20,238 nucleotides of DNA from Deltaproteobacteria bacterium (GTDB lineage Bacteria; Desulfobacterota; DSM-4660; Desulfatiglandales; HGW-15), in assembly GCA_016926135.1 (NCBI GenBank), contig JAFGPH010000321.1, positions 1 to 20,238 of the forward strand. Reading direction: 5' to 3'. The notes below the pieces were generated by a model that was not told the origin of the DNA, did no database searches, and was given only the letters and a program-made list of their open reading frames with translations. Position 1 is the first letter of the stretch, and each line of letters begins with the position of its first letter. This document shows positions 2,235 through 19,535 of this stretch, one piece after another. The position numbers and the translations under genes are program-made.

Positions 2235-2864
2235 ATGGAGAGGAAGCGTGTCGGGATCGTCCTTTTTGAGAACATTGAAGTTCTCGATTTCTGCGGCCCC
2301 TTCGAAGTGTTCTCTGTAACCCGTCTGAACGAAGACAAACGCAGAGAAGAACCTTCACCCTTTGAAGTATGGTTGGTGGCTGAGGGCCCTGGGCCTGTAA
2401 CGACGACAGGCAACATGAAAGTCATTCCTCATTACACGTTTGAAGATTGCCCTCCACTGGATATCCTTGTTGTGCCCGGGGGCTGGGGTACACGCAGGGA
2501 AATGAACAACCCCGTCATGCTGGAGTGGCTTCGCACACGCGCAGCAGAAGTCGAAATCCTGACCTCCGTCTGCACGGGATCCATGCTTTTGGGATTCGCT
2601 GGGCTACTGAACGGACTGCATGCCACCACTCATTGGAGATCGTTAGACTGGATGCGGGATTCCTTTCCAGAGGTGAGCGTGGAGTTCGAAAAACACGTGG
2701 TCGAGGACGGCCGTGTGGTCACGTCGGCAGGCATCTCAGCGGGCATCGATATGGCGCTCAAGGTGGTTTCCCGAACCTTTGGCGAAGATATTGCCCGGAC
2801 CACGGCCCGGCACATGGAATACCCTTATCCGGAGAGCAACGAACGCAGGGTACGCCTTATGTAA
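2235..2864 (+). CDS. DJ-1/PfpI family protein, isonitrile hydratase-like
   Basis: The 209-residue product is a single glutamine-amidotransferase-like (DJ-1/PfpI) domain of usual length. It shows the DFCGPFEVF start (18-26) with Glu24, the VVPGG strand-turn (79-83), and the nucleophile elbow SVCTGS with Cys113, then TTHW with His133 and SAGISAGID. This pattern matches the branch containing bacterial isonitrile hydratase (isonitrile to N-substituted formamide) and the N-terminal half of GlxA-type AraC regulators. No AraC DNA-binding domain follows, so it is an enzyme-type member. A purine-rich stretch (AAAGGGGGGAA) precedes the ATG. The true substrate cannot be read from sequence. It lies upstream of the TAXI transporter but is separated by about 300 bp and a possible promoter, so a shared function is unproven. 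Confidence 0.85.
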   Translation: MERKRVGIVLFENIEVLDFCGPFEVFSVTRLNEDKRREEPSPFEVWLVAEGPGPVTTTGNMKVIPHYTFEDCPPLDILVVPGGWGTRREMNNPVMLEWLRTRAAEVEILTSVCTGSMLLGFAGLLNGLHATTHWRSLDWMRDSFPEVSVEFEKHVVEDGRVVTSAGISAGIDMALKVVSRTFGEDIARTTARHMEYPYPESNERRVRLM

Positions 2865-2871
2865 TCGGCGA

Positions 2872-2900
2872 TTGACATGCAAAGAGATTTCTGTTAAAAA
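2872..2900 (+). promoter_or_regulatory. Possible promoter for the TAXI-TRAP unit
   Basis: A perfect TTGACA (2872-2877) is followed after 17 nt by TAAAAA (2895-2900), which carries the extended -10 dinucleotide TG at 2892-2893. The -10 box itself is weak (4/6). It would give a leader of about 250 nt before the TAXI receptor ATG. In the rest of 2901-3150 I see no gene and no convincing operator or riboswitch. Confidence 0.35.
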
Positions 2901-3161
2901 AGTCTCCCAAAACCCGCAAAAGACAATTCCCTATTATTATCTCTAACATCGTCCGCTTTGTTTGTCGCGGTTGAGAGGACGTGTGTCGGCACTATCCGGG
3001 ATTGCCGGTAAGGACCGCCGCGCACCTGATCCGATGTCGATAGCATTACGGGCCGCGTGCCGCTGACCGCTGCCGGGGATGGCCATCAGGGCCCAGTGCC
3101 GGATGCGGGGATTGGCACGCCGTTTCATTCATTGTACTCAAAGGAGGGAAGGAGGAGAGTG

Positions 3162-4202
3162 ATGTTAAAGATGAGACCAGGTTACGCTTTTGGGGTGTTC
3201 GCAGCAGCCATTGCCGCAGTTTTTGCCTTCTCGGCGATCAACCCGGCCGATGCACAGGAGCGAAAGTCGATTCGCTGGGCCACGTCCAGCACGGGTTCTT
3301 ACGGGTACAAGGTCGCAGCCTCCATGGTGAAAATTCTGGAAGATGCGCTCGGCGGTCAATACACGGTCACCGTCAATCCATATCCCTCGACGACCGCCGC
3401 CATGAAGTCCACGATGGACGGAGGAGGGGAGATCGGCTACACGGCCGATGTGGGGATGGTGCCTCTCTATGCCGGTGAAGGGAGCTTCAAGGACTACAAA
3501 CCTGCCAAGTCGCTGCTGGTGCATACCTGGTATGCCTATCCCATGGAGTCCTTCATGGCTACGAACGCCTCGAGGGCCGGCGAGTTCAAGAGCTGGGGTG
3601 ATTTCAGCGGCAAGCCCGTGTTTTTCACCCCGGCCGGTTACATGAACTGGCTGAATTTCCATCGTATCTTCAAGGCGCTTGGCTATAAATTCAACCACGT
3701 CCAGATCGATACCGCAACCCAGGCGGACGCGCTTCAGTCCGGCTCCATTGTCGGCGCCGTTGCCTATACGACCGCCGGCCGGTCCCTGGCATCCTATTGG
3801 CGAGAGACCGAGCTGCGCGCGGACATCAAGGTGATCAACCCATCTGCGAAGGAAGTGGAAAAGCTGAAGGCTGCCGACCTCGAGCCCGTTGAGGTGGACG
3901 CCACGAAGGCCTTCAGCAAGGACGTGGGCGTGAAGACGATCCTGGGCGTGCCGATCCTTTTCGGCTACAACGTGCGCGTGGACATGCCCGAGGAGGTGGT
4001 CTACAAGATGCTGAGCGCGTTCTACAAGCAACGCGAAGACCTGGCCAAGGTTGATCCGGGCTTCGGGCCCATGGCTCGCAACTTCGTCGGCATGCAGGTG
4101 GGCGGCATCAAGGCCGGGCCGCATATCCCGGTCCATGCGGGACTGGCAAGATTCCTGAAAGAGCACAAGGCCTGGAACGACAAGTGGAAGATCGCCAAGT
4201 GA
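3162..4202 (+). CDS. TAXI family TRAP transporter solute-binding receptor
   Basis: The 346-residue product has a lipid-free signal peptide (basic MLKMRPGY, hydrophobic core, cleavage likely after ADA near residue 30) and then a type 2 periplasmic binding fold of the TAXI class. IRWATSSTGSYGY and the following glycine- and threonine-rich segment are characteristic. TAXI receptors capture organic acids or amino acids in the periplasm and hand them to a fused DctQM-type permease, here the next large gene. The start chosen is the ATG directly after GGAGGAG; a longer in-frame version from 3057 would place non-signal sequence before the signal peptide. The gene opens a unit with the permease and an MmgE/PrpD enzyme, so the ligand is probably that enzyme's substrate or a precursor. 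The ligand itself cannot be deduced. Confidence 0.93.
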   Translation: MLKMRPGYAFGVFAAAIAAVFAFSAINPADAQERKSIRWATSSTGSYGYKVAASMVKILEDALGGQYTVTVNPYPSTTAAMKSTMDGGGEIGYTADVGMVPLYAGEGSFKDYKPAKSLLVHTWYAYPMESFMATNASRAGEFKSWGDFSGKPVFFTPAGYMNWLNFHRIFKALGYKFNHVQIDTATQADALQSGSIVGAVAYTTAGRSLASYWRETELRADIKVINPSAKEVEKLKAADLEPVEVDATKAFSKDVGVKTILGVPILFGYNVRVDMPEEVVYKMLSAFYKQREDLAKVDPGFGPMARNFVGMQVGGIKAGPHIPVHAGLARFLKEHKAWNDKWKIAK

Positions 4203-4266
4203 TCTCGCCAATGGATTGCCAGGGGTGAGAAACCGGCCCGGGATCACTAGGGATTACGAAGATACA

Positions 4267-4378
4267 ACTTGGACAAGTACACGGCCAGGCTCGTTCATGC
4301 TGAGGTATCGAAGCATGAACGGGACCTTCGCCCTTCGATACCTCAGGGCGAACGTTTGATGGACTGTTTTGTCCAAGT
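4267..4378. repeat. Nested palindromic element between receptor and permease genes
   Basis: The core is a perfect 14-bp inverted repeat: CTGAGGTATCGAAG (4300-4313) and CTTCGATACCTCAG (4333-4346). Outside it CGTTC (4292-4296) pairs with GAACG (4349-4353). A competing hairpin is possible because CGTTCATGC (4292-4300) also pairs with GCATGAACG (4313-4321). The block is framed by a third inverted repeat, ACTTGGACAA (4267-4276) and TTGTCCAAGT (4369-4378). It resembles dispersed REP/BIME-like or MITE-like palindromes of bacterial genomes. The rest of the 4203-4596 gap contains no gene I can support. Confidence 0.7.
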
Positions 4379-4596
4379 GATCTTTGGGCAGACCCTTACC
4401 GGTTCTCATCCCTGCGCAGTTACCGGTTTGAAGACCACATTGTACGCCGCGTGTTTCCTGCAACAGCCTACGCGAGAACAGCGGAGAGAAGAGCCTTGCG
4501 TGCTATCACCCTTGTTTTCGCCGGGCGAAGGCAATTGTCCCATCGACGCGGCCGCCTGGAAGGCGTGAGACACCTTGGATCAAAAGGGAGATAGCC

Positions 4597-6558
4597 ATGC
4601 TGAGTGAACGCCTCAAGCAGCACATCAGTCTCAAGAACCTGCAATTCATCTTGTCGCTCATCATGTTCGTGTGGCTGATCTGGTATTTTTACACCGGCTT
4701 CGGCGGCCCGAGCGAACTCGTGGCCTATCTCTTGCCGATCGCCCTGGTGATTCAGATCCTGTCCATGTACCGGGAAGACTATTTTTACAAGCGACTGCCT
4801 CCGGTGGTGAACCATATCCTGGTCGTGTTCTATGTGGGTATCTGCGCGTTTGCCTTCTATCATTTTTACATGGAGTACGACCAGATCTCGATCTGGCGGC
4901 AGGGATCCTACACCACGAGGGACTATATCGCCGGTCTGCTCATATTCCTTCTGGTCATGGAGCTGTCGCGGATGGCCCATCCGGTCCTGTTCTGGTTGAA
5001 CGTGGTTCTGGTCTTCTACACCCTGTGGGGCTATCTGAGCCCGCTCGACTTCTTCTGGCACCCGGGGACCACCTTCTACCGGATCGTCACCTCCAGCACG
5101 GTCGAACTCGCCACGGGCATCTACGGGCTCTATTCTCAGATTGCCCTGACGGTGGTCGCGGCGTTCCTGCTTTTGGCGGCGGTGGCACGGGGGTTTGAGG
5201 CCCAGAGCGCGATGGTCATGGTCATGCGGCGGCTGGCCGGGCGGTCGCGGCATACCATCCCGCAGACTGCGGTGCTGGCCTCGGTCTCGGTCGGCATGGT
5301 GAGCGGCAGCGGTTCGGCCAATGCGGCGGTCACCGGCAGTTTCACCATCCCGTTGATGATGCGCTATGGCGTGCCGGGCGCCTTTGCGGCCGCGGTGGAA
5401 ACCTCGGCGTCCATGGGCGGACTCATCATGCCGCCCCTCATGGCGGTGGCCGGTTTCCTGATGTCCGAGTTCCTCGGTGTTCCCTATTGGGACGTGGTGG
5501 TCCGCGGTTTCGCCATTTCTTTTGTCTACTTTAGTACCCTCTCCCTCGCCATCTATCTCCTGAGTGTCCGCGTGTTGCCCTCCGAACCTGTTGCAGCGCC
5601 CTCGGTGGCGCTCTATGACAAGGTCAAGACCGCCATCTTCTTTGTCGGGATCGGGTATCTCGCCGTGCTGATGGGGTGGCTCAACTACGGGGCCCTGCGC
5701 GCTGCGCTCTACACGGGCACCTTCATGTTCATCCTCTTGTTTCTCGGCTTCCTCTGCTTCAAGTACGTGCGGAAGGACCCGGTTGTGGAAAAGGAGAAAT
5801 TCTTCAAGAACATGTTCATCATGATCGAGACCCATGCCGGAATGACGTCCTATCTGACGCTTCTGCTGGCCACCCTCGGCATCATGATCGGCCTGTTCAC
5901 CGTGACCGGCTTCATCAACCGTATGGGGGCCATGATGCTGGAGGTCGGGGCCTGGAGCGTGGTGGCCACCATCCTGATGGCCTGGGTCTTCGGCTGGCTT
6001 GCGGGCGCCGGCCTTCCGCCGACCGCCACGTACATTATCATGGCCATCATCGTGGTGGACCCGATCGTGAAACTTGGCGTCAACCCATGGGTGGCCCACT
6101 TCTTCGCCTTTCTGATTGCGATCTGGGGGGAATTGTCGCCGCCCACCTCGCTCACGGCCGCGGTCACCGCGCAAATAGCGGGTGCCTCCTTCATGCGGAC
6201 CATGTATGAGGCCGTGAAATTGTGCCTGCCCATCACGTTCATGTCTTTTGCCGTATTCACCCGCTCCGGCATGGTGGAGGAACCTGGATGGCATCAGGTC
6301 GCGGACACGCTGCTGGTGGCGATTTCCACCTGCGGCATCTCCACTGCGATGTTTGCCCGATTCTCGAGAAAGAAGGGGGCAGACATCCTTCTCCGGGCGC
6401 TGCTGGCTTTCGCCTCCTTCGTGGTGATGCTCCACCCGGACGGCAATGTGGCGCTGGCGGTGGCCGTGATCGTGTTGCCGGTAACGGTCTGGGGAGTCTT
6501 TCGTCACCGGGTGATCAGCCCGCCGAAGGGCGAACTGCAGCCGGGAACCGCAACGTAG
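4597..6558 (+). CDS. TRAP transporter fused permease (TAXI type, DctQM fusion)
   Basis: The 653-residue product is almost entirely membrane-embedded. The N-terminal segments (about residues 15-125) correspond to the small DctQ-like subunit and the remainder to the large DctM-like transport subunit. Its hallmark segments are GMVSGSGSANAAVTGSFTIP with the following METSASMGGLIMPP region in the first half, and AGAGLPPTATYI with GELSPPTSLTAA in the second. This length and layout are usual for TAXI-associated permeases, which use an ion gradient to import the receptor-bound acid. An AGGGAG ribosome binding site lies 7 nt before the ATG. The gene is separated from its receptor by 394 bp holding a palindromic element and is followed after 37 bp by the MmgE/PrpD gene, which supports co-expression of uptake and metabolism. 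Confidence 0.95.
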   Translation: MLSERLKQHISLKNLQFILSLIMFVWLIWYFYTGFGGPSELVAYLLPIALVIQILSMYREDYFYKRLPPVVNHILVVFYVGICAFAFYHFYMEYDQISIWRQGSYTTRDYIAGLLIFLLVMELSRMAHPVLFWLNVVLVFYTLWGYLSPLDFFWHPGTTFYRIVTSSTVELATGIYGLYSQIALTVVAAFLLLAAVARGFEAQSAMVMVMRRLAGRSRHTIPQTAVLASVSVGMVSGSGSANAAVTGSFTIPLMMRYGVPGAFAAAVETSASMGGLIMPPLMAVAGFLMSEFLGVPYWDVVVRGFAISFVYFSTLSLAIYLLSVRVLPSEPVAAPSVALYDKVKTAIFFVGIGYLAVLMGWLNYGALRAALYTGTFMFILLFLGFLCFKYVRKDPVVEKEKFFKNMFIMIETHAGMTSYLTLLLATLGIMIGLFTVTGFINRMGAMMLEVGAWSVVATILMAWVFGWLAGAGLPPTATYIIMAIIVVDPIVKLGVNPWVAHFFAFLIAIWGELSPPTSLTAAVTAQIAGASFMRTMYEAVKLCLPITFMSFAVFTRSGMVEEPGWHQVADTLLVAISTCGISTAMFARFSRKKGADILLRALLAFASFVVMLHPDGNVALAVAVIVLPVTVWGVFRHRVISPPKGELQPGTAT

Positions 6559-6595
6559 CTGTCTCCGGTCGAAAACAGGGTGACGGGACTGCCTG

Positions 6596-7984
6596 ATGGA
6601 GGAGACAAGGAATCTGGTAGAAAAATGTCATGAGCTCGGGTTTGACCATCTTCCCGAGCAGGTGGTCGATCGCGTCAAGTACCTGCTCCTGGATTACCTG
6701 GGCGTGGCCGCCAGGGGGGCGTTGAGCGACTCCAGCGTGCCCGTCCGCAGGGTCGTCAAGAACATGGGAAGAACCGGAGAAGGGGCCGTGGTCATCGGCA
6801 CGAACATGAGGGCGGACCCGGTCTGGGCCGCCCTGGCCAACGGCACAGCCGCACACTCCCTTGAGCTCGACGACGTGGTCAACGAGGGATCGCTTCATCC
6901 CGGTGTGGCCATCATGTCTGCGGCCCTGGGCGCAGGCCACATCGCGGGCTGTTCGGGCAGGGACCTGATCGAAGGCATCGTCGCGGGCTACGAGGCGGCA
7001 ATCAGGCTGGGTTTCACGCTGGACCCCGCGGCCCACTATGCCCGGGGCTTTCACCCGACCGGCACCTGCGGGACCATGGGATCGGCCATCACGGCGGCCA
7101 AGATTTTGAAGCTCGACCGAAGAGGGATGGCAAACGCCCTGGGCATCGCCGGGAGCCAGGCGGCAGCCTCCATGGAGTTTCTGGCGGACGGGGCTTTCAC
7201 CAAACGCCTCCATCCCGGATGGGCGGCCCACAGCGGGATCATTGCAGCCCTGCTTGCAGGGGAGGGCTTTACCGGTCCCGGATCCATCCTGGAAGGAAAG
7301 TACGGGTTCCTTCACGCCTATTCAGATGGCTCCATGCCTTCCCGATTGATGGAGGAATGGGGTGCGCCGTACAGGATCATGCGGACCAGCATCAAACCCC
7401 ACTCCTGCTGCCGCTACAAACAGGGCCCGATTGACGGCATCCTGGATATTGTGCAGGGGCACCGATTGAAGACCTCGGATATAATAAAGGTGAGGGTGGG
7501 CATCCTGAGGGCAGGATTTCCCATCGTGGCCGAACCGGAGGAGCTCAAATACAACCCGAAGACGGTGGTGGATGCCCAGTTCAGCATGCCATACGGGGCT
7601 GCAGTGGCCATTCTCTTCGGTCGGGCCTCATTGAACGAATATACCCGGGAAAAGATGGAATCCAGGGAGGTCAGAGAGATGATGGGGCGCATTTCTTGCG
7701 TGCATGATCCGGATCTGGAAAAGGATTTCCCGAAAAGGTGGCCGGCCTCGGTCTCCATCGTGACGAGAAGCGGTGAGGAGTTCAAGACCCACATAGACTA
7801 TCCCAAAGGGGATCCGGAAAACCCCCTGACCTGGGAGGAACTCATCCGGAAGTTCAAAGACCTGAGCGCTCCGATCTTCGAGGAATCCGTACGGATTCAG
7901 ATTGTGGATCGGGTCCGCGGCCTGGAGGCGGAAAGGGACCTGGAGAGGCTTGCCGGGCTTCTGCCGGGAAGGGATAGCGCCTGA
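6596..7984 (+). CDS. MmgE/PrpD family enzyme (dehydratase/hydratase or decarboxylase)
   Basis: The 462-residue product is full length for the MmgE/PrpD family, which includes 2-methylcitrate dehydratase, cis-aconitate decarboxylase (itaconate-forming) and iminodisuccinate epimerase. All act on small di- or tricarboxylates. Positions corresponding to the active site described for cis-aconitate decarboxylase appear intact: Asp92/Asp93 in LELDD, His101 in LHPG, Lys203 and His206 in KRLHPGWAA, and His269 in IKPHSC; HPTGTCG (153-159) is also typical. These residues do not by themselves tell decarboxylase from hydratase. The gene directly follows the TRAP permease and precedes an acid:CoA ligase unit, so the substrate is probably the imported acid or its oxidation product. 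A decaying homolog of prpD from a methylcitrate cycle is unlikely because no prpB or prpC is nearby. Confidence 0.92.
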   Translation: MEETRNLVEKCHELGFDHLPEQVVDRVKYLLLDYLGVAARGALSDSSVPVRRVVKNMGRTGEGAVVIGTNMRADPVWAALANGTAAHSLELDDVVNEGSLHPGVAIMSAALGAGHIAGCSGRDLIEGIVAGYEAAIRLGFTLDPAAHYARGFHPTGTCGTMGSAITAAKILKLDRRGMANALGIAGSQAAASMEFLADGAFTKRLHPGWAAHSGIIAALLAGEGFTGPGSILEGKYGFLHAYSDGSMPSRLMEEWGAPYRIMRTSIKPHSCCRYKQGPIDGILDIVQGHRLKTSDIIKVRVGILRAGFPIVAEPEELKYNPKTVVDAQFSMPYGAAVAILFGRASLNEYTREKMESREVREMMGRISCVHDPDLEKDFPKRWPASVSIVTRSGEEFKTHIDYPKGDPENPLTWEELIRKFKDLSAPIFEESVRIQIVDRVRGLEAERDLERLAGLLPGRDSA

Positions 7985-8048
7985 GGGCACGGCTTCACTC
8001 CCCTTTGCCCGGATGCCCCGTTTGAAAGCACGGGGAGGAATGGCGACA

Positions 8049-8087
8049 GGCGTTGTCAGCGTTTCATGAAACGGGACGCCGTTTTTT
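8049..8087 (+). terminator. Intrinsic terminator after the MmgE/PrpD gene
   Basis: A two-tier hairpin is formed by GGCGT (8049-8053) with ACGCC (8076-8080) outside and CGTTTC (8060-8065) with GAAACG (8068-8073) inside. TTTTTT follows at 8082-8087. This would close the transporter-MmgE/PrpD transcript only 4 nt before the -35 box of the next promoter. Confidence 0.7.
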
Positions 8088-8090
8088 GTA

Positions 8091-8120
8091 TTGACAAGCG
8101 CGGGAACAGGGCCTTACATT
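8091..8120 (+). promoter_or_regulatory. Promoter of the CoA ligase-oxidoreductase operon
   Basis: TTGACA (8091-8096, 6/6 match) is followed after 18 nt by TACATT (8115-8120, 4/6 match). It lies directly downstream of a terminator and directly upstream of the first ligase gene, with a predicted leader of only about 25 nt. A 12-bp palindrome overlaps the -10 box and the predicted start point. Confidence 0.6.
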
Positions 8121-8129
8121 GTCGACAAT
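8118..8129. promoter_or_regulatory. Palindromic operator, probable site for the operon's GntR regulator
   Basis: ATTGTCGACAAT is a perfect 12-bp palindrome fitting the T-GT-N3-AC-A type sites bound by FadR/FCD-class GntR repressors. It overlaps the -10 box and likely transcription start, where a bound dimer would block RNA polymerase. The fourth gene of the same operon encodes an FCD-type GntR protein, so autoregulated repression released by a pathway acid is the simple model. No equally good second copy was found before the TAXI gene. Confidence 0.6.
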
Positions 8130-8150
8130 CGACATTACAGGGAGAAGACC

Positions 8151-9338
8151 ATGAGGCTTCTGGAATACGAGGCAAAGGAGATCCTGGGGCGCTACAAGAT
8201 TCCGATTCCCTCCGGTTATGTGGTTGAATCGGCCGCCGAGATCCGAACCCCGGACCGCCCCGTCATGCTCAAGGCGCAAATCCCACTGGGTAAAAGGGGC
8301 AAGGCCGGCGGCATTCTGGAAGCCGCCTCCCTGGAGGCGGCCAGAGACGGAACGGGACATCTCCTTTCCTCCCGGACCAGGGGCTACACCCCCGGAAGGG
8401 TCCTTGTGGAGGAGAAGACTGCGGTGGCCCGGGAGGTTTTCATGGCCATTACCTATGACACGGTGGCCAAAGAGCCTCTGGCGATCTTTTCCCTGGAGGG
8501 CGGGGTGGATGTGGAGGAGTTGGCCGCAACCAAACCGGAGAAGGTGATCCGGGAGCGGTTTTCGGTTCGTGGGGGGCTGCCCCCGTATCGTGCCAGGGAG
8601 ATCGTCTCCGAGGCGGGTGTTTCGGGAGGCATGCTCCTGGGCCTGGGGGCCATCCTTTCCGGCCTTGCGGACATGTTTCTGGACTATGATGCCACGGTCG
8701 CTGAAATCAATCCCCTGGCCCTCACGGGTGACGGGAAATGGGTTGCCCTGGATTGTCACATCGAGATCGACGATGACGCCCTCTTCCGGCACAGGGATGT
8801 GGCGGAAAAGCAGGCGGATGAAAGCCGATATGCCGGTGGAAGGACGAGTACGGATTTCGAGCGCAGGGCTGCGGATATTGATCGCCTGGATCATCGTGGG
8901 GTTGCAGGGCGCGTGATCGAATTCGACGGTTCACTGGGCTTGATCATCGGGGGAGGTGGTGCTTCCCTCACAGCGTTTGATGCGGTGAGGCAGAATGGTG
9001 GAAGACCCGCCAATTACTGCGAAATCGGCGGCAACCCTTCCGTTCTCAAGGTGAAGGAACTGACCAGGCACATCCTGTCCAAGAGAGACGTCGAGAAGAT
9101 CGCCGTTATCATGAACGTGGTGAGCAATACCAGGGTGGATCTCGTGGCCCGCGGCGTTGTGAAGGGCATCCTGGAGGCTGGCAAGATCCCGTCGGAAACG
9201 CTGGCTGTTTTTCGGGTTCCCGGGGCCTGGGAAGAGGAGGGGTTCAAGATCCTTTCAAAGTACGGTGTGGTTTACTGCGACCGAAGCGTTTCCATTGACG
9301 GCGCGGCCGAGATGGCTGTGACGAGAACCCGGAACTGA
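8151..9338 (+). CDS. Acid:CoA ligase beta subunit (SucC/MtkA-like, ADP- or GDP-forming)
   Basis: The 395-residue product is the size of succinyl-CoA synthetase beta. It opens with the family signature LLEYEAKEILGRYKIPIP. It has an ATP-grasp domain with Lys41 in LKAQ, GKRGKAGGI (47-55) and EINPL (185-189), then a C-terminal ligase domain with GLIIGGGGASL and EIGGNPS (291-297). With the next gene it forms a two-subunit ATP-dependent ligase. Relatives use succinate, malate (malate-CoA ligase) or itaconate. The start at 8151 follows GGGAGAAG and matches the family N-terminus; the longer frame from 8091 would run through the promoter. The usual IGGGA motif region reads EIGGNPS, so preference for a non-succinate acid is possible but unproven. 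Confidence 0.92.
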   Translation: MRLLEYEAKEILGRYKIPIPSGYVVESAAEIRTPDRPVMLKAQIPLGKRGKAGGILEAASLEAARDGTGHLLSSRTRGYTPGRVLVEEKTAVAREVFMAITYDTVAKEPLAIFSLEGGVDVEELAATKPEKVIRERFSVRGGLPPYRAREIVSEAGVSGGMLLGLGAILSGLADMFLDYDATVAEINPLALTGDGKWVALDCHIEIDDDALFRHRDVAEKQADESRYAGGRTSTDFERRAADIDRLDHRGVAGRVIEFDGSLGLIIGGGGASLTAFDAVRQNGGRPANYCEIGGNPSVLKVKELTRHILSKRDVEKIAVIMNVVSNTRVDLVARGVVKGILEAGKIPSETLAVFRVPGAWEEEGFKILSKYGVVYCDRSVSIDGAAEMAVTRTRN

Positions 9339-9359
9339 GCAGCACCCAAGGGAGACGAG

Positions 9360-10259
9360 ATGTCCATACTGGCGGAGAAAGACGCGAGGGTGATCATTCA
9401 GGGGATCACCGGAAGAGAGGCTGCCTCTTTTACGAAGGACATGCTGGATTACGGGACCCGTGTGGTTGCCGGGGTCACCCCCGGCAAGCAGGGACAGGCG
9501 GTCTACGGCGTACCCGTGTACGATACGGTTCGTGGGGCACTGAGGGATCACCCGGCCGATGCGGCGGTGATCTCGGTTCCACCGGGTATGGTGAAAGGGG
9601 CCGTGCTGGAGACCCTTGAAAATGGAATACAGCTTCTGGTGGTGGTCACCGAGCGTGTGCCCAGGAAAGACGTCGTGGAGTTCCTGGAAACGGCGAGGGA
9701 AAAGGGTGCCCGCGTCATCGGTCCCAACACGCTCGGCCTGATCTCTCCGGGCAAGATCAAACTGGGCATGGCAGGGGGACCGGCGGAGGACGTGAGGAAG
9801 GCCTACATGCCGGGACGCGTGGGGATAGCGTCCCGAAGCGGGGGCATGACCACGGAGATCGCCAACCTGCTCAGCACCCACGGCATCGGACAGAGCACCT
9901 GCATCGGGGTCGGGGGCGACCCGGTCGTGGGTTCCAACTTCCTGGATCTCATCCCCCTGTTCCATGAGGATCCGGAAACGGATGGCGTTGTCCTATTCTG
10001 TGAACCGGGGGGTGTCATTGAGGAGAGCCTTGCGGAGATGGTCGTTTCCAGGGGGATCACCATGCCCATTGTGGCTTTCGTGGCCGGTCGCTTCGTGGAT
10101 GAGATGCCCGGGGTAAGGTTCGGCCATGCGGCCACCATTGTGGAAGGCGAAAAGGGGACCGCCAAGGGCAAGGTCGAGAGCTTCTGGAAAGCCGGTATCC
10201 ATGTGGCGGAGAGGTTCTCCGATATCGTTCCCCTGCTCAAGAAACACCTTTCATCGTGA
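9360..10259 (+). CDS. Acid:CoA ligase alpha subunit (SucD/MtkB-like)
   Basis: The 299-residue product has an N-terminal CoA-binding Rossmann domain (VIIQGITGREAASFTKDML, 11-29, then AGVTPGKQG) and the C-terminal ligase domain. GPNTLGLISPG (121-131) and GIASRSGGMTTE (155-166) are diagnostic. His256 in the GVRFGHAATI loop is the histidine phosphorylated in this family, so the enzyme should be active. The reaction is acid + CoA + ATP (or GTP) to acyl-CoA + ADP (GDP) + phosphate. It begins 21 nt after the beta subunit with an AAGGGAGACGAG ribosome binding site. A CitE-like lyase converging from the right fits a malyl- or citramalyl-CoA product better than a Krebs-cycle role. Confidence 0.93.
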   Translation: MSILAEKDARVIIQGITGREAASFTKDMLDYGTRVVAGVTPGKQGQAVYGVPVYDTVRGALRDHPADAAVISVPPGMVKGAVLETLENGIQLLVVVTERVPRKDVVEFLETAREKGARVIGPNTLGLISPGKIKLGMAGGPAEDVRKAYMPGRVGIASRSGGMTTEIANLLSTHGIGQSTCIGVGGDPVVGSNFLDLIPLFHEDPETDGVVLFCEPGGVIEESLAEMVVSRGITMPIVAFVAGRFVDEMPGVRFGHAATIVEGEKGTAKGKVESFWKAGIHVAERFSDIVPLLKKHLSS

Positions 10260-10274
10260 ACACCGAGGCGGGAG

Positions 10275-10508
10275 ATGGGCGAGTTCATCAGCATCGAAGT
10301 GGATTTTTCAAAATGCGCAGGCATCGCCGCGTGCGGCGGGTGTGTGAAGGTGTGTCCGGTGAACATCTTTGCCGGGGAGGAGGGCAGTCCATCCATCGTC
10401 CCGGAAAACGAGGATGAATGCACCCTGTGCGATTTGTGCAGGCAGGTCTGCAGTCCATCGGCGATCATCATCCATAAGCGATACGAAGAACATGCCCGGA
10501 ATGAATGA
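10275..10508 (+). CDS. 2[4Fe-4S] ferredoxin
   Basis: The 77-residue product is a bacterial-type ferredoxin. The second motif is canonical (C49-x2-C52-x2-C55-x3-C59). The first is stretched: C14 is followed by five instead of two residues before C20-x2-C23-x3-C27-P, so the first ligand is either displaced C14 or missing. It starts 15 nt after the ligase alpha gene, and its end overlaps the regulator gene, so it is co-expressed with the pathway. A likely role is electron transfer to or from the SDH/FRD-like complex encoded two genes downstream, or to another redox partner. The stretched loop may alter cluster potential. Its partner cannot be read from sequence. Confidence 0.85.
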   Translation: MGEFISIEVDFSKCAGIAACGGCVKVCPVNIFAGEEGSPSIVPENEDECTLCDLCRQVCSPSAIIIHKRYEEHARNE

Positions 10509-11187
10509 CCGGTTGCGGGGCCTGGATTTCAAACCCGCGGGTCTGGCGGAGAAGGCCTCCGAAACCCTTCGCCAAGCCATTCTGGAAGGCCTTTTGAAGG
10601 GCGGGGAGCAGCTGCTCGAGGTGCAGCTCCAGAGGCAGTTTGGGATCAGCCGCTCTCCCCTGAGGGAGGCCTTCAGGGATCTCGAGAAGAAGGGCCTCGT
10701 GGTCATGGTCCCCAGGAAAGGGACCTTCGTCAAGAGCATATCCAGAAAGGACGTCCAGGACAATTTCCCGGTGCGCGCCGTTCTCGAAGGTCTTGCGGCT
10801 CGAATGGCCTGCAGGAACATGGGGCAGAGAGATCTGGCGGCATTGGATCAGTCCCTGGAAGGGATGAAAAGATCGGCAAAGGCAGGGGATGCCAGGGGAT
10901 TCATGGAGCACCATATTGCCTTTCATGAGACCTTTATCCGGGCATCGGAAAACGATGTGCTCATTCGGGTCCTGGAGAACCTGCGCATGCACAGCATCTG
11001 GCATCGATTCTCGTACCAGTATTACAAGGAGGATTTCCAGAAGTCTCTGGCCATTCACCGAAAGATCCTGGCTCTTTTCAGGGAAAAGGACCCTGATGAA
11101 GAGGTGATTGAAAGAACGGTCAGGCAGCACATCGAAGTGGCCCTGAAGAGATTTTTGCTTTACTTGCAGGAGCAAGTCCACAGGTGA
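10492..11187 (+). CDS. GntR family transcriptional regulator, FCD domain
   Basis: The 231-residue product has an N-terminal winged helix typical of GntR proteins (roughly residues 14-80; LQRQFGISRSPLREAFRDLE is the helix-turn-helix, followed by the wing GLVVMVPRKGTFV). An all-helical FCD effector domain follows, with the metal or carboxylate ligand histidines in EHHIAFHETF, HRKILALF and RQHIEVAL. FCD regulators commonly sense organic acids such as lactate, citrate or C4-dicarboxylates. The ATG at 10492 overlaps the ferredoxin end; the ATG at 10501 is equally possible and neither has a strong ribosome binding site. Its likely target is the palindrome at 8118-8129 in the promoter of its own operon. 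Confidence 0.9.
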   Translation: MPGMNDRLRGLDFKPAGLAEKASETLRQAILEGLLKGGEQLLEVQLQRQFGISRSPLREAFRDLEKKGLVVMVPRKGTFVKSISRKDVQDNFPVRAVLEGLAARMACRNMGQRDLAALDQSLEGMKRSAKAGDARGFMEHHIAFHETFIRASENDVLIRVLENLRMHSIWHRFSYQYYKEDFQKSLAIHRKILALFREKDPDEEVIERTVRQHIEVALKRFLLYLQEQVHR

Positions 11188-11199
11188 CGGGATTTCCCC

Positions 11200-12000
11200 A
11201 TGGGTAGCGAAATCATGAGAAAGAGACTTGAAGCCGCCCTGATTTCCGGGCTCCAGAGGTTGCCCTGTGTGCCCTTCTATGCCGGGACCAGGGGTTGGTA
11301 CTTTATCGTGAGCTGGTGTCACAGGCTCTCGGGCATTCTTCTGGTGCTCCTGGCCCTGTTTCATATCTATACCCTTGAATCCATCCCGGAGACCGGCAGG
11401 TCTTTTCTTCTCATGTTCTTCCAATGGGCATTGAGCATTCCGGTGATCTTCCATGCCTTCAATGGTGCGCGAATCATTCGATACGAATGCTATGGGGGCC
11501 GTGAGGATGAAAAGATGCTTCGATGGGTCTTCAGCCTCCTGTGCGTTTTCGTCCTGCTCCTGGCCGTGTTGATGGTCCTGGGGAGACATCGGGTATCCCC
11601 ATTCTTCTACTGGATGTTGATGGGACCTGCGGCCCTGGTCAGCGGGTATACCCTCGGGGCGAGGATCTGGAACAAGGGGCATTCCCTTTTCTGGAAGCTA
11701 CAGAGAATCAGCGGCGCTTTCCTGCTGGTCATGATCCCCGCCTATATGCTGTTCCTCCAAATCCAGCCGTCCCTCAACGTGGAGGCCAACGTGGTGGTGC
11801 GCGGGATCCAGTCGTTCTCGATCAGGGCGATCTATTCTTTGCTGCTTCTTGCGGTTCTCTTGCACGGGGGTTACGGGGCATGGTCCGTGGCGAATGATTA
11901 TCTGTCATCGCGGAACCAGGGCCGAGTCCTGGCTGTGGGCATCGCGTGCCTATTCCTGTTTTTTCTCTGGATCGGCTTAAGGATGATCCTCCGGATCTGA
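11200..12000 (+). CDS. Membrane anchor/cytochrome b subunit of an SDH/FRD-like complex
   Basis: The 266-residue product has about six hydrophobic helices (near 33-58, 68-93, 108-128, 168-188, 206-230, 243-263). The first part (CHRLSG at 40-45, His55, HAFNGAR at 85-91) and the later part (LQRISG at 167-172, LHGGYGAW at 221-228) match landmarks of single-polypeptide B-type anchors such as Bacillus SdhC. By that alignment His85 and His222 would bind one heme. His55 would be one ligand of the second heme, but its partner position is occupied by Ala181/Tyr182 instead of His. There is also an extra helix between the two halves, so a fusion of SdhC- and SdhD-like units is an alternative reading. It would anchor the following two subunits and exchange electrons with quinone. 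Confidence 0.85.
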   Translation: MGSEIMRKRLEAALISGLQRLPCVPFYAGTRGWYFIVSWCHRLSGILLVLLALFHIYTLESIPETGRSFLLMFFQWALSIPVIFHAFNGARIIRYECYGGREDEKMLRWVFSLLCVFVLLLAVLMVLGRHRVSPFFYWMLMGPAALVSGYTLGARIWNKGHSLFWKLQRISGAFLLVMIPAYMLFLQIQPSLNVEANVVVRGIQSFSIRAIYSLLLLAVLLHGGYGAWSVANDYLSSRNQGRVLAVGIACLFLFFLWIGLRMILRI

Positions 12001-12020
12001 TCAACCAGAGGGGTTTTCAC

Positions 12021-13817
12021 ATGGCTCACCCGTTTCGAATATCTTCCACCCTGAAGTGTGACGTGCTGATCATCGGCGCAGGCGGTGCAGGCCTGCGTTG
12101 TGCGGCGGAGATTCTGGAGAGAAGACCGGGGGCTGAAGTAGTCGCTGTGACCAAGGTGGCCAGTCCCCAGAAATCCCATACCCAGACCGCACAAGGGGGC
12201 ATGGCGGCTGTTGATCCGAGGGACACCGTAGACAGGGCCGTCTTTCACATGTTTGACACATGGAAGGGTTCGGATTGCACCGCAGATCAGAACGTCATCC
12301 GAAAGATCATCGAGGCGGGTTGGGAGCAGGTCCTCTGGATGGAAAGACACGGCATGCATTTCAGTCGCCGGGAAGACGGCAAACTCAGTAAGAGAACCTT
12401 TGGCGGGCATACCCTCCATTTCGGTGAATCCCTGGCCTATCGATGCGTCTTTGAGGCCGACAGAACGGGCAAGGGCATCATGGATCACGTATGGGGGGAG
12501 AGTCTCAAGGGGGGTGCCCGTTTTATCAACCAGGCCGTCGCCACAGAGCTCCTGTTCACGGACGGGGCATGTGTGGGGGCCGTCCTGTTCCGGCAGAAAG
12601 AGGGGGAGTTCGTTCGGGTCATGGCCAAGGCCACCGTATTGGCCACGGGGGGGAACGGGCAGGTCTTCAGGGTTACGACAAACTGCCGTCAAAACACGGG
12701 GGATGGAAACGCCTTGCTTCTCATGGCCGGACTGCCGGTCATGGACCCCGAGGCGATCCAGTTCCATCCCACCGGGATTGTGGGGCCCGGCATCCTTGCC
12801 AGTGAGACCTTGCGTTCCGTGGGGGGTATTTTGAGGAACAGGGAACTGGAGCCCTTCATGGAAAGATATGCACCGAAGATGAAGGAGCTGGCGCCGAGAG
12901 ACCTGGTGGCCCGGGCCATTGAAACGGAGGTTCGCGAGGGCAGGGGTATCCTGAACTCGGATCATCAGATTGAACACGTCTGGATCGACCTGAGGCACCT
13001 TCCCGATTATGTCCATGATGTGGAACTGCCGGAGGTGTCGAGTTTCTTCAGGAAGTTCATCAATCTCGACCCCAAAAAGGACCTCTGTCCTGTTCGGCCG
13101 AGCAATCACTACCAGATGGGTGGAATACCCACCAACGAGTTTGGAGAAGTCCTGCGCGGCCCCGGAGAGACGGTTCCCTGCCTCTATGCGGTGGGAGAAT
13201 GCGCAGCCGCAAGTTTTCACGGCTTCAATCGGCTTGGAACCAATTCTCTCCTAGAGCTGATCACCATGGGCAAATTTGCGGGCGAGAGGATCGCCGGGTG
13301 CCTCCGGGAGGGGTTGACCGAAGCGCAAGCGGATGCCGGCGAAAAGACCTTTGCAGCCTTTTCACGATACCTGGGAGCAGGGGGGAGGGACAATCTCGGC
13401 AAGATCCGTGAAGAGATGCGCAATCTCATGACCGAGAAGGTGGGTGTCTTTCGCAAGGAGGACGGCATTCAGGATGCGATTGAGGCGCTCCGGGGACTCA
13501 AAGAGAGGGCTGAAAAGGCCGCCTTGTCGGGTCGAAGCCTGGTCATGAATCAAGATCTTTTTCAACGGTGGGAACTGGATAACCTGCTGGGCAACGCCAT
13601 GGTCATAGCGACGGGCGCCCTGAACAGGAGGGAATCAAGAGGGGGACACTTCCGGGATGATTTTCCGGAGCGGAGCGATACGTTCCACTATCATACCCTG
13701 GCTTACATGACCGAGTACGGAGAGGTGAGGCTTGGGGAACGCCCTGTGGACATGAGCCTGTTCGATGCGAAGGGTGAACACTGCGAACGATTCGGAATGA
13801 TTGAGCGAAAGTACTGA
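12021..13817 (+). CDS. SDH/FRD-like flavoprotein subunit (FAD)
   Basis: The 598-residue product carries the FAD-binding GAGGAGLRCA motif (19-28) and KSHTQTAQGG, whose His53 is the usual covalent FAD attachment site. Catalytic positions of fumarate reductase/succinate dehydrogenase are mostly present: His249 in QFHPTG, Glu262, Arg293 in APRDLVARAI, His363 in NHYQMGG and Arg404 in NRLGTNSL. Two normally near-invariant stretches differ: RGEGG reads RSVGG (265-269) and the GERFM stretch reads LEPFM (276-280). These line the capping-domain side of the active site, so an altered substrate such as a substituted succinate is plausible. The start at 12021 follows AGAGGGG. It lies 20 nt after the anchor gene and before the iron-sulfur subunit gene. 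Confidence 0.92.
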   Translation: MAHPFRISSTLKCDVLIIGAGGAGLRCAAEILERRPGAEVVAVTKVASPQKSHTQTAQGGMAAVDPRDTVDRAVFHMFDTWKGSDCTADQNVIRKIIEAGWEQVLWMERHGMHFSRREDGKLSKRTFGGHTLHFGESLAYRCVFEADRTGKGIMDHVWGESLKGGARFINQAVATELLFTDGACVGAVLFRQKEGEFVRVMAKATVLATGGNGQVFRVTTNCRQNTGDGNALLLMAGLPVMDPEAIQFHPTGIVGPGILASETLRSVGGILRNRELEPFMERYAPKMKELAPRDLVARAIETEVREGRGILNSDHQIEHVWIDLRHLPDYVHDVELPEVSSFFRKFINLDPKKDLCPVRPSNHYQMGGIPTNEFGEVLRGPGETVPCLYAVGECAAASFHGFNRLGTNSLLELITMGKFAGERIAGCLREGLTEAQADAGEKTFAAFSRYLGAGGRDNLGKIREEMRNLMTEKVGVFRKEDGIQDAIEALRGLKERAEKAALSGRSLVMNQDLFQRWELDNLLGNAMVIATGALNRRESRGGHFRDDFPERSDTFHYHTLAYMTEYGEVRLGERPVDMSLFDAKGEHCERFGMIERKY

Positions 13818-13850
13818 CAGCATCTTTTCACGATCCTGATGGGGCTACAC

Positions 13851-14570
13851 ATGCAGACCACCTATGACATTACCCTGAAGATCAGGCGCTATGACCCGGA
13901 CACCGGGAAGCGCTGGGTTCAGGATTACCCTTTGAAGGCGGGGAGGATCCTTCGGTTTACGGATCTCTTTCGAAAGATCAACAATGAATTGGATCCCAGC
14001 CTGGCCTGGAACTCGTCCTGTGAGCATGCCCAGTGCGGCACCTGTGCGGTGAAGATCAACGGGAAGCCGATGCTTGCCTGCGAACTCCTTGTTGAAAACG
14101 CGGTGCATCACTTTGGGACCTCCGTCTTTCAGGTGGAGCCTATTCCCGTTGCACCGGTGGTTCGTGACCTCGTGGTGGATCTGGAGAAGGCCTATGAAAA
14201 AGTTCATAAAGCCAAGCCTTACATCATCGAACCAAAAGAGAAACCGGACCAGGGAAACGCCTATCCGATTTCTCCGCGAGAGATCGAGTATTACGTGGAT
14301 GCTACCCGCTGCATCAACTGCTTCTGTTGCGCCGCCGCCTGCATGAGCAGCCAGAGAAGCTTCCTGGGGCCTAATGCGGTCATGGCCAGCATTGTCCGGC
14401 TCATGGATCCCCGGGAAAACGCCAAAGAAGAGAGGTTGGAGCTCCTCTACAGCGAGGAGGGCATCTACCGATGTCATACGTCCAAGGCCTGTTCCTTCGT
14501 CTGCCCGAAAGAGATCGACGTGGCCCATTTCATTGCGCTGGCTAAGGAAGGCAGGTTCCGGTCCTCATGA
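13851..14570 (+). CDS. SDH/FRD-like iron-sulfur subunit
   Basis: The 239-residue product is normal length for SdhB/FrdB. Cysteines for three clusters are visible: [2Fe-2S] C57, C62, C65 and C77; [4Fe-4S] C154, C157, C160 and C164; [3Fe-4S] C208, C214 and C218. The usual Pro after the fourth [4Fe-4S] cysteine is replaced by Met. It passes electrons between the flavoprotein and the membrane anchor. The ATG at 13851 was chosen because GGGG lies 6 nt before it; an in-frame ATG at 13839 would add four residues and has no ribosome binding site. It is the last gene of the plus-strand operon, and its stop abuts the first of two palindromic repeats. Confidence 0.92.
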   Translation: MQTTYDITLKIRRYDPDTGKRWVQDYPLKAGRILRFTDLFRKINNELDPSLAWNSSCEHAQCGTCAVKINGKPMLACELLVENAVHHFGTSVFQVEPIPVAPVVRDLVVDLEKAYEKVHKAKPYIIEPKEKPDQGNAYPISPREIEYYVDATRCINCFCCAAACMSSQRSFLGPNAVMASIVRLMDPRENAKEERLELLYSEEGIYRCHTSKACSFVCPKEIDVAHFIALAKEGRFRSS

Positions 14571-14682
14571 AGGCATCCTAGAAACAGTTGCGGCCTGTAC
14601 GACCACCCCCCAAGGCCCTCTCGGAGACGGCGTTCACTGCTGCTGAGGGCCGTGGGGGGGGTGGTCTCTCAGGACCGCAACT
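14571..14682. repeat. Palindromic repeat, copy 1
   Basis: This copy starts directly after the iron-sulfur subunit stop codon. AGTTGCGG (14586-14593) pairs with CCGCAACT (14675-14682), and GACCACCCCC...GGCCCTC pairs with GAGGGCC...GGGGTGGTC inside. It shares sequence with copy 2 from the preceding CATCCTAGAAA-like stretch through the loop (GTTCA-TG region). It is therefore a real repeat family and not merely two similar hairpins. It probably also acts as a bidirectional terminator at this convergent junction. Confidence 0.8.
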
Positions 14683-14814
14683 GATCTTTTGCATTGCCGA
14701 TTACCGCCCCGCAGTATCGAAATTTTTACCGTTGCAGGGACAGGAATGTATCCCGTTTCAGGAGTCGCAGCCTGGGGCTGCTTGTGGAAAGTGCAGAACC
14801 CGGGTCCCGTCTTG

Positions 14815-14936
14815 GAGGTATCGTAGAAATAATTGCGGCCTGTACGACCACCCCCCCACGGCCCTCACAAAGATGGTGTTCATTGATGAGGAGGGCCGTG
14901 GTGGGGTGGTCACAGCGCCGCGACTCAGGATACCAG
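14815..14936. repeat. Palindromic repeat, copy 2
   Basis: This is a second, diverged copy in the same orientation. TTGCGGCCTGTACGACCACC (14833-14852) is identical to the corresponding part of copy 1, as is GAGGGCCGTG at 14891-14900. Its outer ends GGTATC and GATACC form the base of the palindrome. The right end contains the stop codon and last codons of the CitE-like gene. The 130 bp between the copies hold only a small GCAGCC-TGG-GGCTGC hairpin (14767-14781) without a T-run, and no gene. Confidence 0.8.
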
Positions 14937-15785
14937 GGAGAGTAAGCGACGCGCCCGTTCGAACACGGGGCGGTCGATCATCTGTCCGTTGAGGGCCACG
15001 GCCCCCTTTCCTGATTTCTCCCCCTCTTCAAATGCCGAAACAACGGCACGAGCCTTGGAAAGCTCTTCTTTGGTCGGGGAGAGCAATTCATTGACCACTG
15101 CCACCTGTTTTGGGTGGATGACCTGTTTGGCGCGAAAGCCCATGCGACGTCCGGCCTGCGTGTTGGCGATGAGCCCCTGCCGGTTGTTTACGTCGGGAAA
15201 GACCATGTCAATGGCCTGGACTCCTGCAGCCCGCGCAGCCACGGCAATGCTCTGGCGTGCATAGCTTAACTCCTCCGCGCCTTCCGTTCGTTGGAGATCG
15301 AGGTCCAGGGCGTAATCCTCGCCTCCCAGGGCCACGCCCAAGGTCCTCTCGCCAACCTTCAGGATGGGGTATGCCTGAACCAGGCCCAAGGCGCTTTCAA
15401 TCATCACGATGAGCCCTAGGGCGCCATCAGGCAATCCCCGTCTCCTCTCCGCCTCCTTCATGATGGCTTCCACAACGGGGATCTGCTGTGGCGATTCGAT
15501 CTTCGGCACGCAGATCCCCGTGAGAGGGGTGTCGGCAACAGAGAAAAGATCGTCCACAAAGTGGTCGGTTCCGACGCCATTCACCCGCACGAAGAGGGCC
15601 GCACGGCTTCTTCTGGCTATGTCCGGCAGGGCCTTGCATACCATCCCCCTCGCTCTCTCCTTTTCTGCAAAGGGAACGGAGTCTTCCAGGTCCAGGATAT
15701 AGGCGTCGGCGCCCCGCTCGGGCGCCTTGGCGAGCATCCCCTCCTGAATGCCCGGCACATACATGTAGGTGCGAAATATGTTCAT
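14925..15785 (-). CDS. CitE-like CoA-ester lyase (HpcH/HpaI aldolase superfamily)
   Basis: The 286-residue product is full length for the CitE/malyl-CoA lyase family. It shows YMYVPG (7-12), LDLEDSVP (31-38), RVNG with Arg67, PKIES (94-98), MIESALGL with Glu130, GGEDYALDL with Glu156/Asp157 at the metal site, and the FRAKQVIHPKQV segment (217-228). Members cleave or form beta-hydroxyacyl-CoA esters: malyl-CoA to acetyl-CoA + glyoxylate, citramalyl-CoA to acetyl-CoA + pyruvate. No citrate lyase alpha (CitF) or acyl-carrier (CitD) gene is nearby, so a stand-alone CoA-ester lyase is more likely than citrate lyase. GGAGG lies 6 nt before the ATG. It converges on the ligase-oxidoreductase operon and probably performs the final cleavage. 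Confidence 0.9.
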   Translation of the reverse strand: MNIFRTYMYVPGIQEGMLAKAPERGADAYILDLEDSVPFAEKERARGMVCKALPDIARRSRAALFVRVNGVGTDHFVDDLFSVADTPLTGICVPKIESPQQIPVVEAIMKEAERRRGLPDGALGLIVMIESALGLVQAYPILKVGERTLGVALGGEDYALDLDLQRTEGAEELSYARQSIAVAARAAGVQAIDMVFPDVNNRQGLIANTQAGRRMGFRAKQVIHPKQVAVVNELLSPTKEELSKARAVVSAFEEGEKSGKGAVALNGQMIDRPVFERARRLLSLVS

Positions 15786-15799
15786 CTGAATCCTCCATT

Positions 15800-16105
15800 T
15801 CAGCCAAAGTGAATCTTAGGGTATCCCAGGTTCCTCAATTCGTCCAGCCAGAGCTTCAGGAGGTCCAGCCTGAGCTTGTTGTCCGTTTGGGGGAGTTGGC
15901 CCGTGGCCAGAGAAGGGACCAGCCATTTCAAGGAAGTGCGAACATCTTCCACGGTCACGGTCTGGCCGGTGGATTGCAGGATGTGGTCCCGGAATAGAAG
16001 GGTGGACTTTACGAGCAAGGCGAAGACCCTTCCAACATCGTCTCCCTTCTGGACCGAATGCTGCGCCGCCTTCAGGAACAGTCTGGTGATGTGCTCTTCT
16101 TCCAC
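15800..16105 (-). CDS. Unknown 101-aa helical protein upstream of the CitE-like gene
   Basis: The product starts at GTG (16105) after AAGGAAAGG, and no in-frame ATG is available upstream before a stop. It is predicted to be all-helical and rich in Leu, Asp and Lys, with no Cys, membrane segment or recognisable motif; the end reads LGYPKIHFG. I do not recognise the family. It ends only 14 nt before the CitE-like start codon and overlaps that gene's ribosome binding region, so the two should be co-transcribed and perhaps coupled. A chaperone or accessory role for the lyase is only a positional guess. Confidence 0.6.
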   Translation of the reverse strand: MEEEHITRLFLKAAQHSVQKGDDVGRVFALLVKSTLLFRDHILQSTGQTVTVEDVRTSLKWLVPSLATGQLPQTDNKLRLDLLKLWLDELRNLGYPKIHFG

Positions 16106-17016: not shown

Positions 17017-17031
17017 GTTCAGTTTTTGAAC
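17017..17031. promoter_or_regulatory. Operator 2 of the winged-helix regulator
   Basis: GTTCAGTTTTTGAAC keeps the GTTCA/TGAAC arms and is centred 25 bp from operator 1. Both sites sit in the larger context AGTGTTCA-n7-GAACG. A spacing of about two and a half helical turns would place the two dimers on roughly opposite faces unless DNA bends. Confidence 0.6.
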
Positions 17032-17085
17032 GCACTCGATTCACACGTAGTGTTTAACTCAGAGCCAAGGAGCTTCCCGGCCAGG

Positions 17086-18173: not shown

Positions 18174-18174
18174 T

Positions 18175-19489: not shown

Positions 19490-19535
19490 TGAAATCCCAC
19501 CGGGAGCGGGATTTCATATAACAGGGCTCCGCCGC
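19490..19535 (+). repeat. Hairpin plus conserved tail element, copy B
   Basis: TGAAATCCC (19490-19498) pairs with GGGATTTCA (19508-19516) over a 9-nt loop, starting directly after the epimerase stop codon. The tail ATATAAC, AGG, GCTCCGCCGC matches copy A at 18 of 20 positions, while the stem sequence is unrelated. Confidence 0.7.

Follow-up and report, generated by a model that had tools for sequence, protein, structure and literature searches.

Gene content and conservation of the locus

The window analysed here is a stretch of 20,238 nucleotides from a Deltaproteobacteria bacterium of the Desulfobacterota (contig JAFGPH010000321.1, assembly GCA_016926135.1), and it carries a candidate catabolic operon in which a complex of the succinate dehydrogenase type stands beside an MmgE/PrpD-family enzyme and an acid-coenzyme A (CoA) ligase. 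The genes lie in one plus-strand row (2235-14570) that runs from a DJ-1/PfpI gene to SdhB. A TAXI-family TRAP solute receptor (3162..4202; TIGR02122, 84.5 bits, a marginal pass of the 84.35 cut-off) and a fused TRAP transporter permease (4597..6558; TIGR02123, 334 bits) make up the importer, and they are followed by the MmgE/PrpD-family enzyme (6596..7984; PrpD below), a predicted 2-substituted-succinate isomerase resembling methylsuccinate isomerase. After a gap of 166 bases come LigB, the ATP-grasp beta subunit of the ligase (8151..9338; PF08442, PF16114), LigA, its CoA-binding alpha subunit (9360..10259; PF02629/PF00549), a small ferredoxin-like protein (10275..10508; PF12838, 30.9 bits), an FCD-GntR regulator (10492..11187; PF07729, PF00392), a fused SdhC-SdhD-like membrane anchor (11200..12000; PF01127, with TIGR02968 on the C-terminal half below its cut-off), an SdhA-like flavoprotein (12021..13817; PF00890, PF02910), predicted to be a 2-substituted-succinate dehydrogenase, and an SdhB-like iron-sulphur subunit (13839..14570; TIGR00384, 187.5 bits against a cut-off of 88). 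Intergenic gaps from LigB to SdhB do not exceed 21 bases. A lyase gene of the CitE/citramalyl-CoA-lyase type (14925..15785, minus strand; PF03328, 172 bits) is convergent to the row, and thus lies outside the main transcript. Every gene named in a first-pass annotation of this DNA is present, each backed by a Pfam or NCBIfam match; the Pfam scan took in 20 open reading frames (ORFs) of the window.

The check named in that annotation, co-conservation of these genes in other genomes, was borne out. A scan for LigB in a collection of 84,980 species returned 132 relatives. The 80 best loci were retained and their neighbours compared by tblastn with the window proteins; the desulfobacterial loci carry the same neighbours as the window. 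The nearest relatives by ligase, L001 and L002 (L denoting loci and G genomes), are metagenome-assembled genomes (MAGs) of Desulfobacteraceae/Deltaproteobacteria, with identities of 75-76% for LigB, 81-82% for LigA and 79% for SdhA. With SdhA as a second anchor (395 genomes of the phylum, E <= 1e-180, at most three candidates scored per genome), nine genomes matched, seven with the PrpD-linked clade described below and two with its sister clade. Both anchors and further succinate dehydrogenase matches combined place the module-type SdhCDAB-like complex in 22 genomes. In 20 of these the complex shares its stretch with an MmgE/PrpD gene, counting G016, where a 100-N gap separates PrpD2 from the GntR-Sdh genes, and G009, where only SdhCD of the complex is visible before the contig ends; the complex-linked PrpD proteins form two subfamilies, 58-69% and 32-40% identical to that of the window. 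G003 is an exception, its SdhA being in two pieces beside N runs and its PrpD homologues, of only 31-35%, lying elsewhere; the other, G014, is taken up below. LigAB shares the locus of the complex in 13 of the 22 genomes; in G013 and G017 contig ends apparently part the two, and in G015 LigAB sits elsewhere; G003 and G014 also have LigAB. The PrpD2 subfamily occurs in 11 of the 395 genomes, six of them shared with the seven SdhA genomes (Fisher p 6e-10), and LigB in nine, three of them shared (p 3e-4), both p values being inflated by genome relatedness. Since the gene set recurs in other genomes, the module is far beyond chance.

PrpD, the complex II paralogue, the ligase and the lyase

Residues H87, E90, H101, Y148, H153, K203 and K267 of the window PrpD correspond to the seven residues described for (S)-(R)-methylsuccinate isomerase (PMC12290011), the match being one of position and motif with the published list and not an alignment with the Pseudomonas aeruginosa sequence itself. 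The active-site residues claimed by the first-pass annotation are thereby present. The predicted model of PrpD is closest to iminodisuccinate epimerase, and of the family members compared the 2-methylcitrate dehydratases stand furthest from it, in structure and in sequence (21% identity). PrpD also scores below the NCBIfam PrpD cut-offs (64.6 bits against 950, and 27.1 against 575), and the published methylsuccinate isomerase is inactive with mesaconate, itaconate and aconitates (PMC12290011). Given its residues, the closest structure and this enzymology, the protein looks like an isomerase/epimerase and not like the alkylfumarate hydratase that had been proposed.

The window complex belongs to complex II by its subunit make-up and its catalytic residues. 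Its SdhA retains the histidine that binds FAD and the counterparts of His242, Glu255, Arg286, His354 and Arg399 of E. coli SdhA, which we take to be the catalytic ones. It departs from succinate dehydrogenase/fumarate reductase (SDH/FRD) in its linkage to PrpD, in the substrate loop, which reads SETLRSVGG in the window and most copies versus the canonical TEGCRGEGG, and in the tree, where the 15 PrpD-linked sequences form one clade (99/94) that, with a sister clade of five lacking PrpD, is joined to ordinary SDH/FRD by a stem 1.76 long. A further change, GANRLG to GFNRLG, is also found in three ordinary flavoproteins compared. By sequence the module SdhA forms a clade of its own among complex II flavoproteins. 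Other SDH/FRD-like flavoproteins, of 35-41% identity, coexist with it in G002, G004, G008, G011 and G015, and a sister-clade copy does so in G007, G010 and G017. The sister clade comprises L098, L099 and L100, from these last three genomes, together with L088 and L089; the L099 copy stands beside fumarase and a carboxyltransferase and is perhaps the housekeeping succinate dehydrogenase for propionate metabolism. Stop codons flagged in two SdhA copies, considered as possible recoding, were dismissed, as neither has a stop inside its aligning part: the L101 copy is open to the contig end and that of L007 enters a 100-base N run.

The ligase was expected to be other than an ordinary succinate ligase, and this held. 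LigB forms its own clade (17 rows, 99/99), and an ordinary SucC coexists in all five genomes checked, scoring 490-547 bits against NF010647 versus 175-195 for LigB. The window ligase stays below the cut-off of NF010647, the MtkAB malate-CoA ligase model (188.3 against 604 bits), as below the other NCBIfam cut-offs, and in place of the SucCD motifs SRSGTLTYE and NIFGG it has SRSGGM and NVVSNTRVD. SRSGGM and a six-residue insert are found in LigA as in ATP-citrate lyase, unlike SucD, and for a 53-residue piece of LigA around the insert the best PDB chain is human ACLY (30.3 bits, versus 20.8 for E. coli SucD). LigB has DHRGxAG, GGNP and NTRxD in common with the citryl-CoA synthetase subunit CcsA (6hxq), a comparison with one CcsA sequence in which CcsB was not aligned, and it matches the citrate-binding PF16114 (28.1 bits, cut-off 26.8). 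Over whole chains, however, LigAB is no closer to CcsAB than to SucCD (CcsA 225.5 bits against up to 256.1 for SucC; for LigA, CcsB 253.0 against up to 326.9 for SucD), and it further differs from CcsAB and ATP-citrate lyase in its linked ferredoxin-like gene. We read LigAB as a probable ligase of a 2-hydroxy acid rather than of succinate, citramalate and citrate both fitting, with the specificity argued purely from motifs, as the literature yielded no usable residue list for the succinate or citrate site.

The ferredoxin-like gene follows LigAB in 69 of the 80 loci (the best 80 of 132 relatives), in several phyla. Four of the other 11 have no LigA match and seven have LigA without a ferredoxin match; most of the 11 end or have gaps close by, while L018, L023 and L056 have room, and L056 contains an ORF of the ferredoxin-like cluster. 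Cysteines 27, 49, 52 and 55 are invariant in the 65 sequences aligned, whereas the remaining four occur in 19-21, the window protein retaining all eight. The alignment thus describes what is basically a one-cluster protein, perhaps a partner of the ligase rather than a free electron carrier, and possibly an iron-sulphur subunit of it. Ligase and iron-sulphur partner are a wider family across several other phyla: in Chloroflexi, Myxococcota, Solirubrobacterales and other groups (L019-L080), many loci combine LigB-LigA-ferredoxin with nearby acyl-CoA dehydrogenases, malyl-CoA-lyase-like genes or a MaoC/mesaconyl-CoA-hydratase-like gene, which looks like a second role for this ligase family.

In other copies of the module a conserved lyase of the CitE type is encoded between LigA and the ferredoxin; its 14 sequences fall in one set (97/97), and the window and L004 lack it at that position. 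The window CitE is not orthologous to it; it groups with E. coli CitE (97/86), outside the Ccl and RipC rows, and its best NCBIfam model is citE, below cut-off. The branches in this tree are long, so the tree does not fix the substrate of the lyase. Neither the acyl carrier CitD nor CitF was found among the 20 ORFs scanned. The earlier proposal of a route ending in a CitE-like lyase can be kept, with the amendment that the window CitE is not the lyase conserved elsewhere; it may substitute for the module lyase, or the true lyase may be encoded beyond the window.

A predicted route for 2-substituted succinates

Taken together, these data suggest that the operon serves Desulfobacterota in the catabolism of a 2-substituted succinate, with methylsuccinate as the likeliest substrate, a reading to which we give a probability of about 0.46 and in which the substrate, the direction, every activity and the hydration step are predictions from the observed gene content, co-conservation and clade and motif assignments. 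The TRAP transporter, here of the TAXI type, would import methylsuccinate or another 2-substituted succinate, and PrpD would interconvert its mirror forms. The SdhCDAB-like complex would then oxidise the free acid to an alkylfumarate (mesaconate), passing the electrons to quinone, and a class I fumarase acting as mesaconase would hydrate mesaconate to citramalate. LigAB with its ferredoxin-like partner would form citramalyl-CoA at the expense of ATP, which a CitE-type lyase would cleave to acetyl-CoA and pyruvate. This order of isomerisation, oxidation, hydration, activation and cleavage is the simplest one to make use of all the recurring genes. Two considerations favour methylsuccinate: an isomerase requires a 2-substituted succinate that is chiral, and a published cluster with the same isomerase-lyase pair handles this acid. 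A sharper version, in which a methylsuccinate:quinone oxidoreductase feeds a citramalate-CoA ligase with its own iron-sulphur partner, so that branched C5-dicarboxylates would reach acetyl-CoA and pyruvate by a path not described before, is put forward tentatively, as less likely than not.

For the hydration step a class I fumarase/mesaconase is a likelier candidate than PrpD. In L008 the genes of a two-subunit class I fumarase stand between those of SdhB and PrpD, and in G003 (L107) they adjoin SdhB in an unbroken stretch. The enzyme is also encoded beside PrpD2 in L141, at roughly 3 kb from SdhB in L094, at 9-10 kb from LigAB in G015 (L144) and, in G011, some 10 kb away from the module. Of 18 genomes searched, 17 contain a homologue of its alpha subunit, usually as one copy elsewhere, as would be expected for the genome of the window, and mesaconate is hydrated by the class I enzymes of E. 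coli and Burkholderia (PMC4682846). The substituted-succinate route of the first-pass annotation was said to need no missing enzyme; because PrpD looks like an isomerase and a fumarase stands beside several copies, it probably needs one enzyme from beyond the window. Of that earlier interpretation we keep the co-conservation, the non-succinate ligase and the substituted-succinate route, and give up PrpD as hydratase; its second route, from tricarballylate through itaconate, is less likely.

The closest published system is the itaconate/methylsuccinate cluster of pseudomonads (Ict, Ich, Mcd, Msi, Ccl; PMC12290011, PMC9875883), which likewise has an MmgE/PrpD isomerase-type enzyme, a CitE-type lyase and an importer, and with which the predicted end products, acetyl-CoA and pyruvate, agree; a glyoxalase-family gene, found in some module relatives, is a further likeness, by family and with the sequences not compared. 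The cluster differs from the window in that an acyl-CoA dehydrogenase acts there on the CoA ester, whereas a complex II paralogue would act here on the free acid, and in its use of a CoA transferase instead of an ATP-dependent ligase with a ferredoxin-like partner. Indeed, neither an itaconate CoA transferase nor a MaoC-type hydratase was found among the 20 window ORFs scanned. Among the open-licence PMC papers listed by literature searches, titles and opening lines of abstracts mention no complex II paralogue for methylsuccinate and no such operon, which is not proof of absence. The operon is most likely a variant of the known catabolism of branched C5-dicarboxylates, and the variant itself would be new. 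Methylsuccinate can arise anaerobically by reduction of itaconate, and itaconate-fermenting bacteria are not known, according to PMC12290011. If the reading is right, a conserved oxidation operon of Desulfobacterota would be a sink for acids of the itaconate/methylsuccinate type, complex II would gain a new substrate class, a new family of acid-CoA ligases would be defined, and uncultured relatives of sulfate reducers would have a new route for a little-studied acid.

Several observations weigh against the methylsuccinate reading. The published isomerases always adjoin an acyl-CoA dehydrogenase, and 96% of them are from Pseudomonadota (PMC12290011); no acyl-CoA dehydrogenase is among the 20 ORFs scanned, and PrpD shares only 32% identity with an Azospirillum protein encoded in a five-gene cluster of the methylsuccinate type, a protein with Asp and His in place of the Glu and Tyr of the window PrpD. 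No fumarase is among these ORFs either, and none is close to the module in most relatives; the sole class I fumarase match is of 33-34% in G005, G012 and G020, G016 has none, and the fumarase of Syntrophobacter fumaroxidans is reported negative for mesaconate (PMC4682846). The SdhA loop is nearer the canonical one in L004, L083, L086 and L087. G001, G005, G012, G013, G016 and G020 have other SDH-like matches of at most 34% or none, and therefore the complex may also be their succinate dehydrogenase. G014 has LigAB and, where a contig ends, a fragment of SdhA (56%); its assembly gives no match to PrpD. Conversely, G040, G078, G101 and G114 have PrpD and the complex with no LigB match. Finally, the ligase motifs suit citrate at least as well as citramalate.

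Because of these citrate-like motifs, the main rival is a pathway for tricarballylate (carboxymethylsuccinate), which the complex would oxidise to aconitate, PrpD hydrate to citrate or isocitrate, LigAB convert to citryl-CoA and the CitE-like lyase split into acetyl-CoA and oxaloacetate. The LigAB motifs shared with citryl-CoA-forming enzymes, the citrate-binding Pfam match of LigB and the grouping of the window CitE with E. coli CitE all agree with it, and no extra hydratase is required. Tricarballylate is achiral, however, and would leave without a role an enzyme that looks like an isomerase; the class I fumarase beside several copies suits fumarate-type substrates better, the CitE grouping is on long branches, and the lyase of the other copies is of a different clade, so that we consider this pathway unlikely. 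Alternatively, PrpD itself might hydrate an alkylfumarate derived from an alkylsuccinate, as first proposed. In favour of this, the complex has PrpD beside it in 20 of the 22 genomes and a fumarase in only a few, and the 2-methylcitrate dehydratases catalyse a related dehydration with the same fold. These dehydratases are the relatives most distant from PrpD, though, and the inactivity of methylsuccinate isomerase with mesaconate and aconitates points the same way, which makes a hydratase role for PrpD rather improbable.

It is also conceivable, with a lower probability again, that the module belongs to ordinary C4 metabolism, the complex being a succinate dehydrogenase and ligase and lyase splitting malate via malyl-CoA to acetyl-CoA and glyoxylate. 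Some module genomes lack another clear SDH, L094 has fumarase and two malate-dehydrogenase-type genes beside the complex, the sister clade in L099 is accompanied by fumarase and carboxyltransferase, and LigAB relatives of other phyla lie near malyl-CoA-lyase-like genes. Ordinary C4 metabolism leaves the recurring PrpD unexplained, the known PrpD substrates being substituted C4 acids, and it sits poorly with the coexisting SDH/FRD-like and sister-clade flavoproteins described above. The direction of an SDH/FRD enzyme cannot be read from its sequence, and the complex might instead reduce mesaconate or itaconate in a branched-acid respiration while ligase and lyase oxidise another share of the substrate; an anaerobe, Eggerthella, reduces itaconate to methylsuccinate (as cited in PMC12290011). 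No feature of the module favours reduction specifically, and a cell that excretes methylsuccinate would have little use for a methylsuccinate isomerase, leaving this use of the complex very improbable.

Neighbouring genes and flanking sequence

Around the conserved core the accessory genes vary. The importers of module relatives are of the TAXI, DctP or branched-chain ABC type; relatives of the window TAXI receptor adjoin the same complex in L092 (61%) and L102 (37%), as do those of the permease (59% and 39%, respectively), and FCD-GntR relatives (50-64%) adjoin the complex or LigAB in other loci. The DJ-1/PfpI-family protein that opens the row (2235..2864, plus strand; PF01965, 77.8 bits) has relatives adjoining such genes in L102 (82%), L092 (34%) and L139 (66%, beside PrpD2), and may belong to the module set. 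A DHDPS-family gene stands beside the complex or PrpD in L012, L016, L092, L094, L095 and L139, and a small glyoxalase-family gene occurs in L005, L009, L027 and L102; that of L007 was left out as a neighbour where a 100-N run breaks the stretch. Such runs also break the neighbourhoods of G003, L098 and G016. The MAG records CP070697 and CP070673, labelled as chromosomes (L003, L007, L098, L106, L107), have 100-N runs every few kilobases in places, and neighbourhoods across them may be artificially joined. Loci L139 to L143 have PrpD2 or LigAB-CitE without the module SdhA and adjoin other SDH/FRD-superfamily flavoproteins, class I fumarase, or a CoA transferase with acyl-CoA dehydrogenase; by gene content they would be variants of the same catabolic theme.

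A search upstream of the TAXI gene gave no inverted repeat. Scans of the window returned two promoters against 4.2 expected from shuffled sequence and 13 terminators against 12.1, no excess in either case, and no Rfam match over the gathering score. Between SdhB and CitE (14588-14930) lie two similar palindromic elements, with inverted repeats at 14606-14659 and 14846-14911, which share an identical 17-base hairpin 245 bases apart. At the left end of the window a 381-residue ORF (671-1816, minus strand) has no Pfam match at E 0.001; its FTHFDGDHC resembles by eye a metallo-beta-lactamase-like hydrolase, a likeness unsupported by Pfam. At the right end (17026-20238) lie genes for a helix-turn-helix/MarR-type protein, a NusG-like factor and an NAD-dependent epimerase, together with another ORF cut by the window edge; a polysaccharide gene cluster unrelated to the module may begin here.

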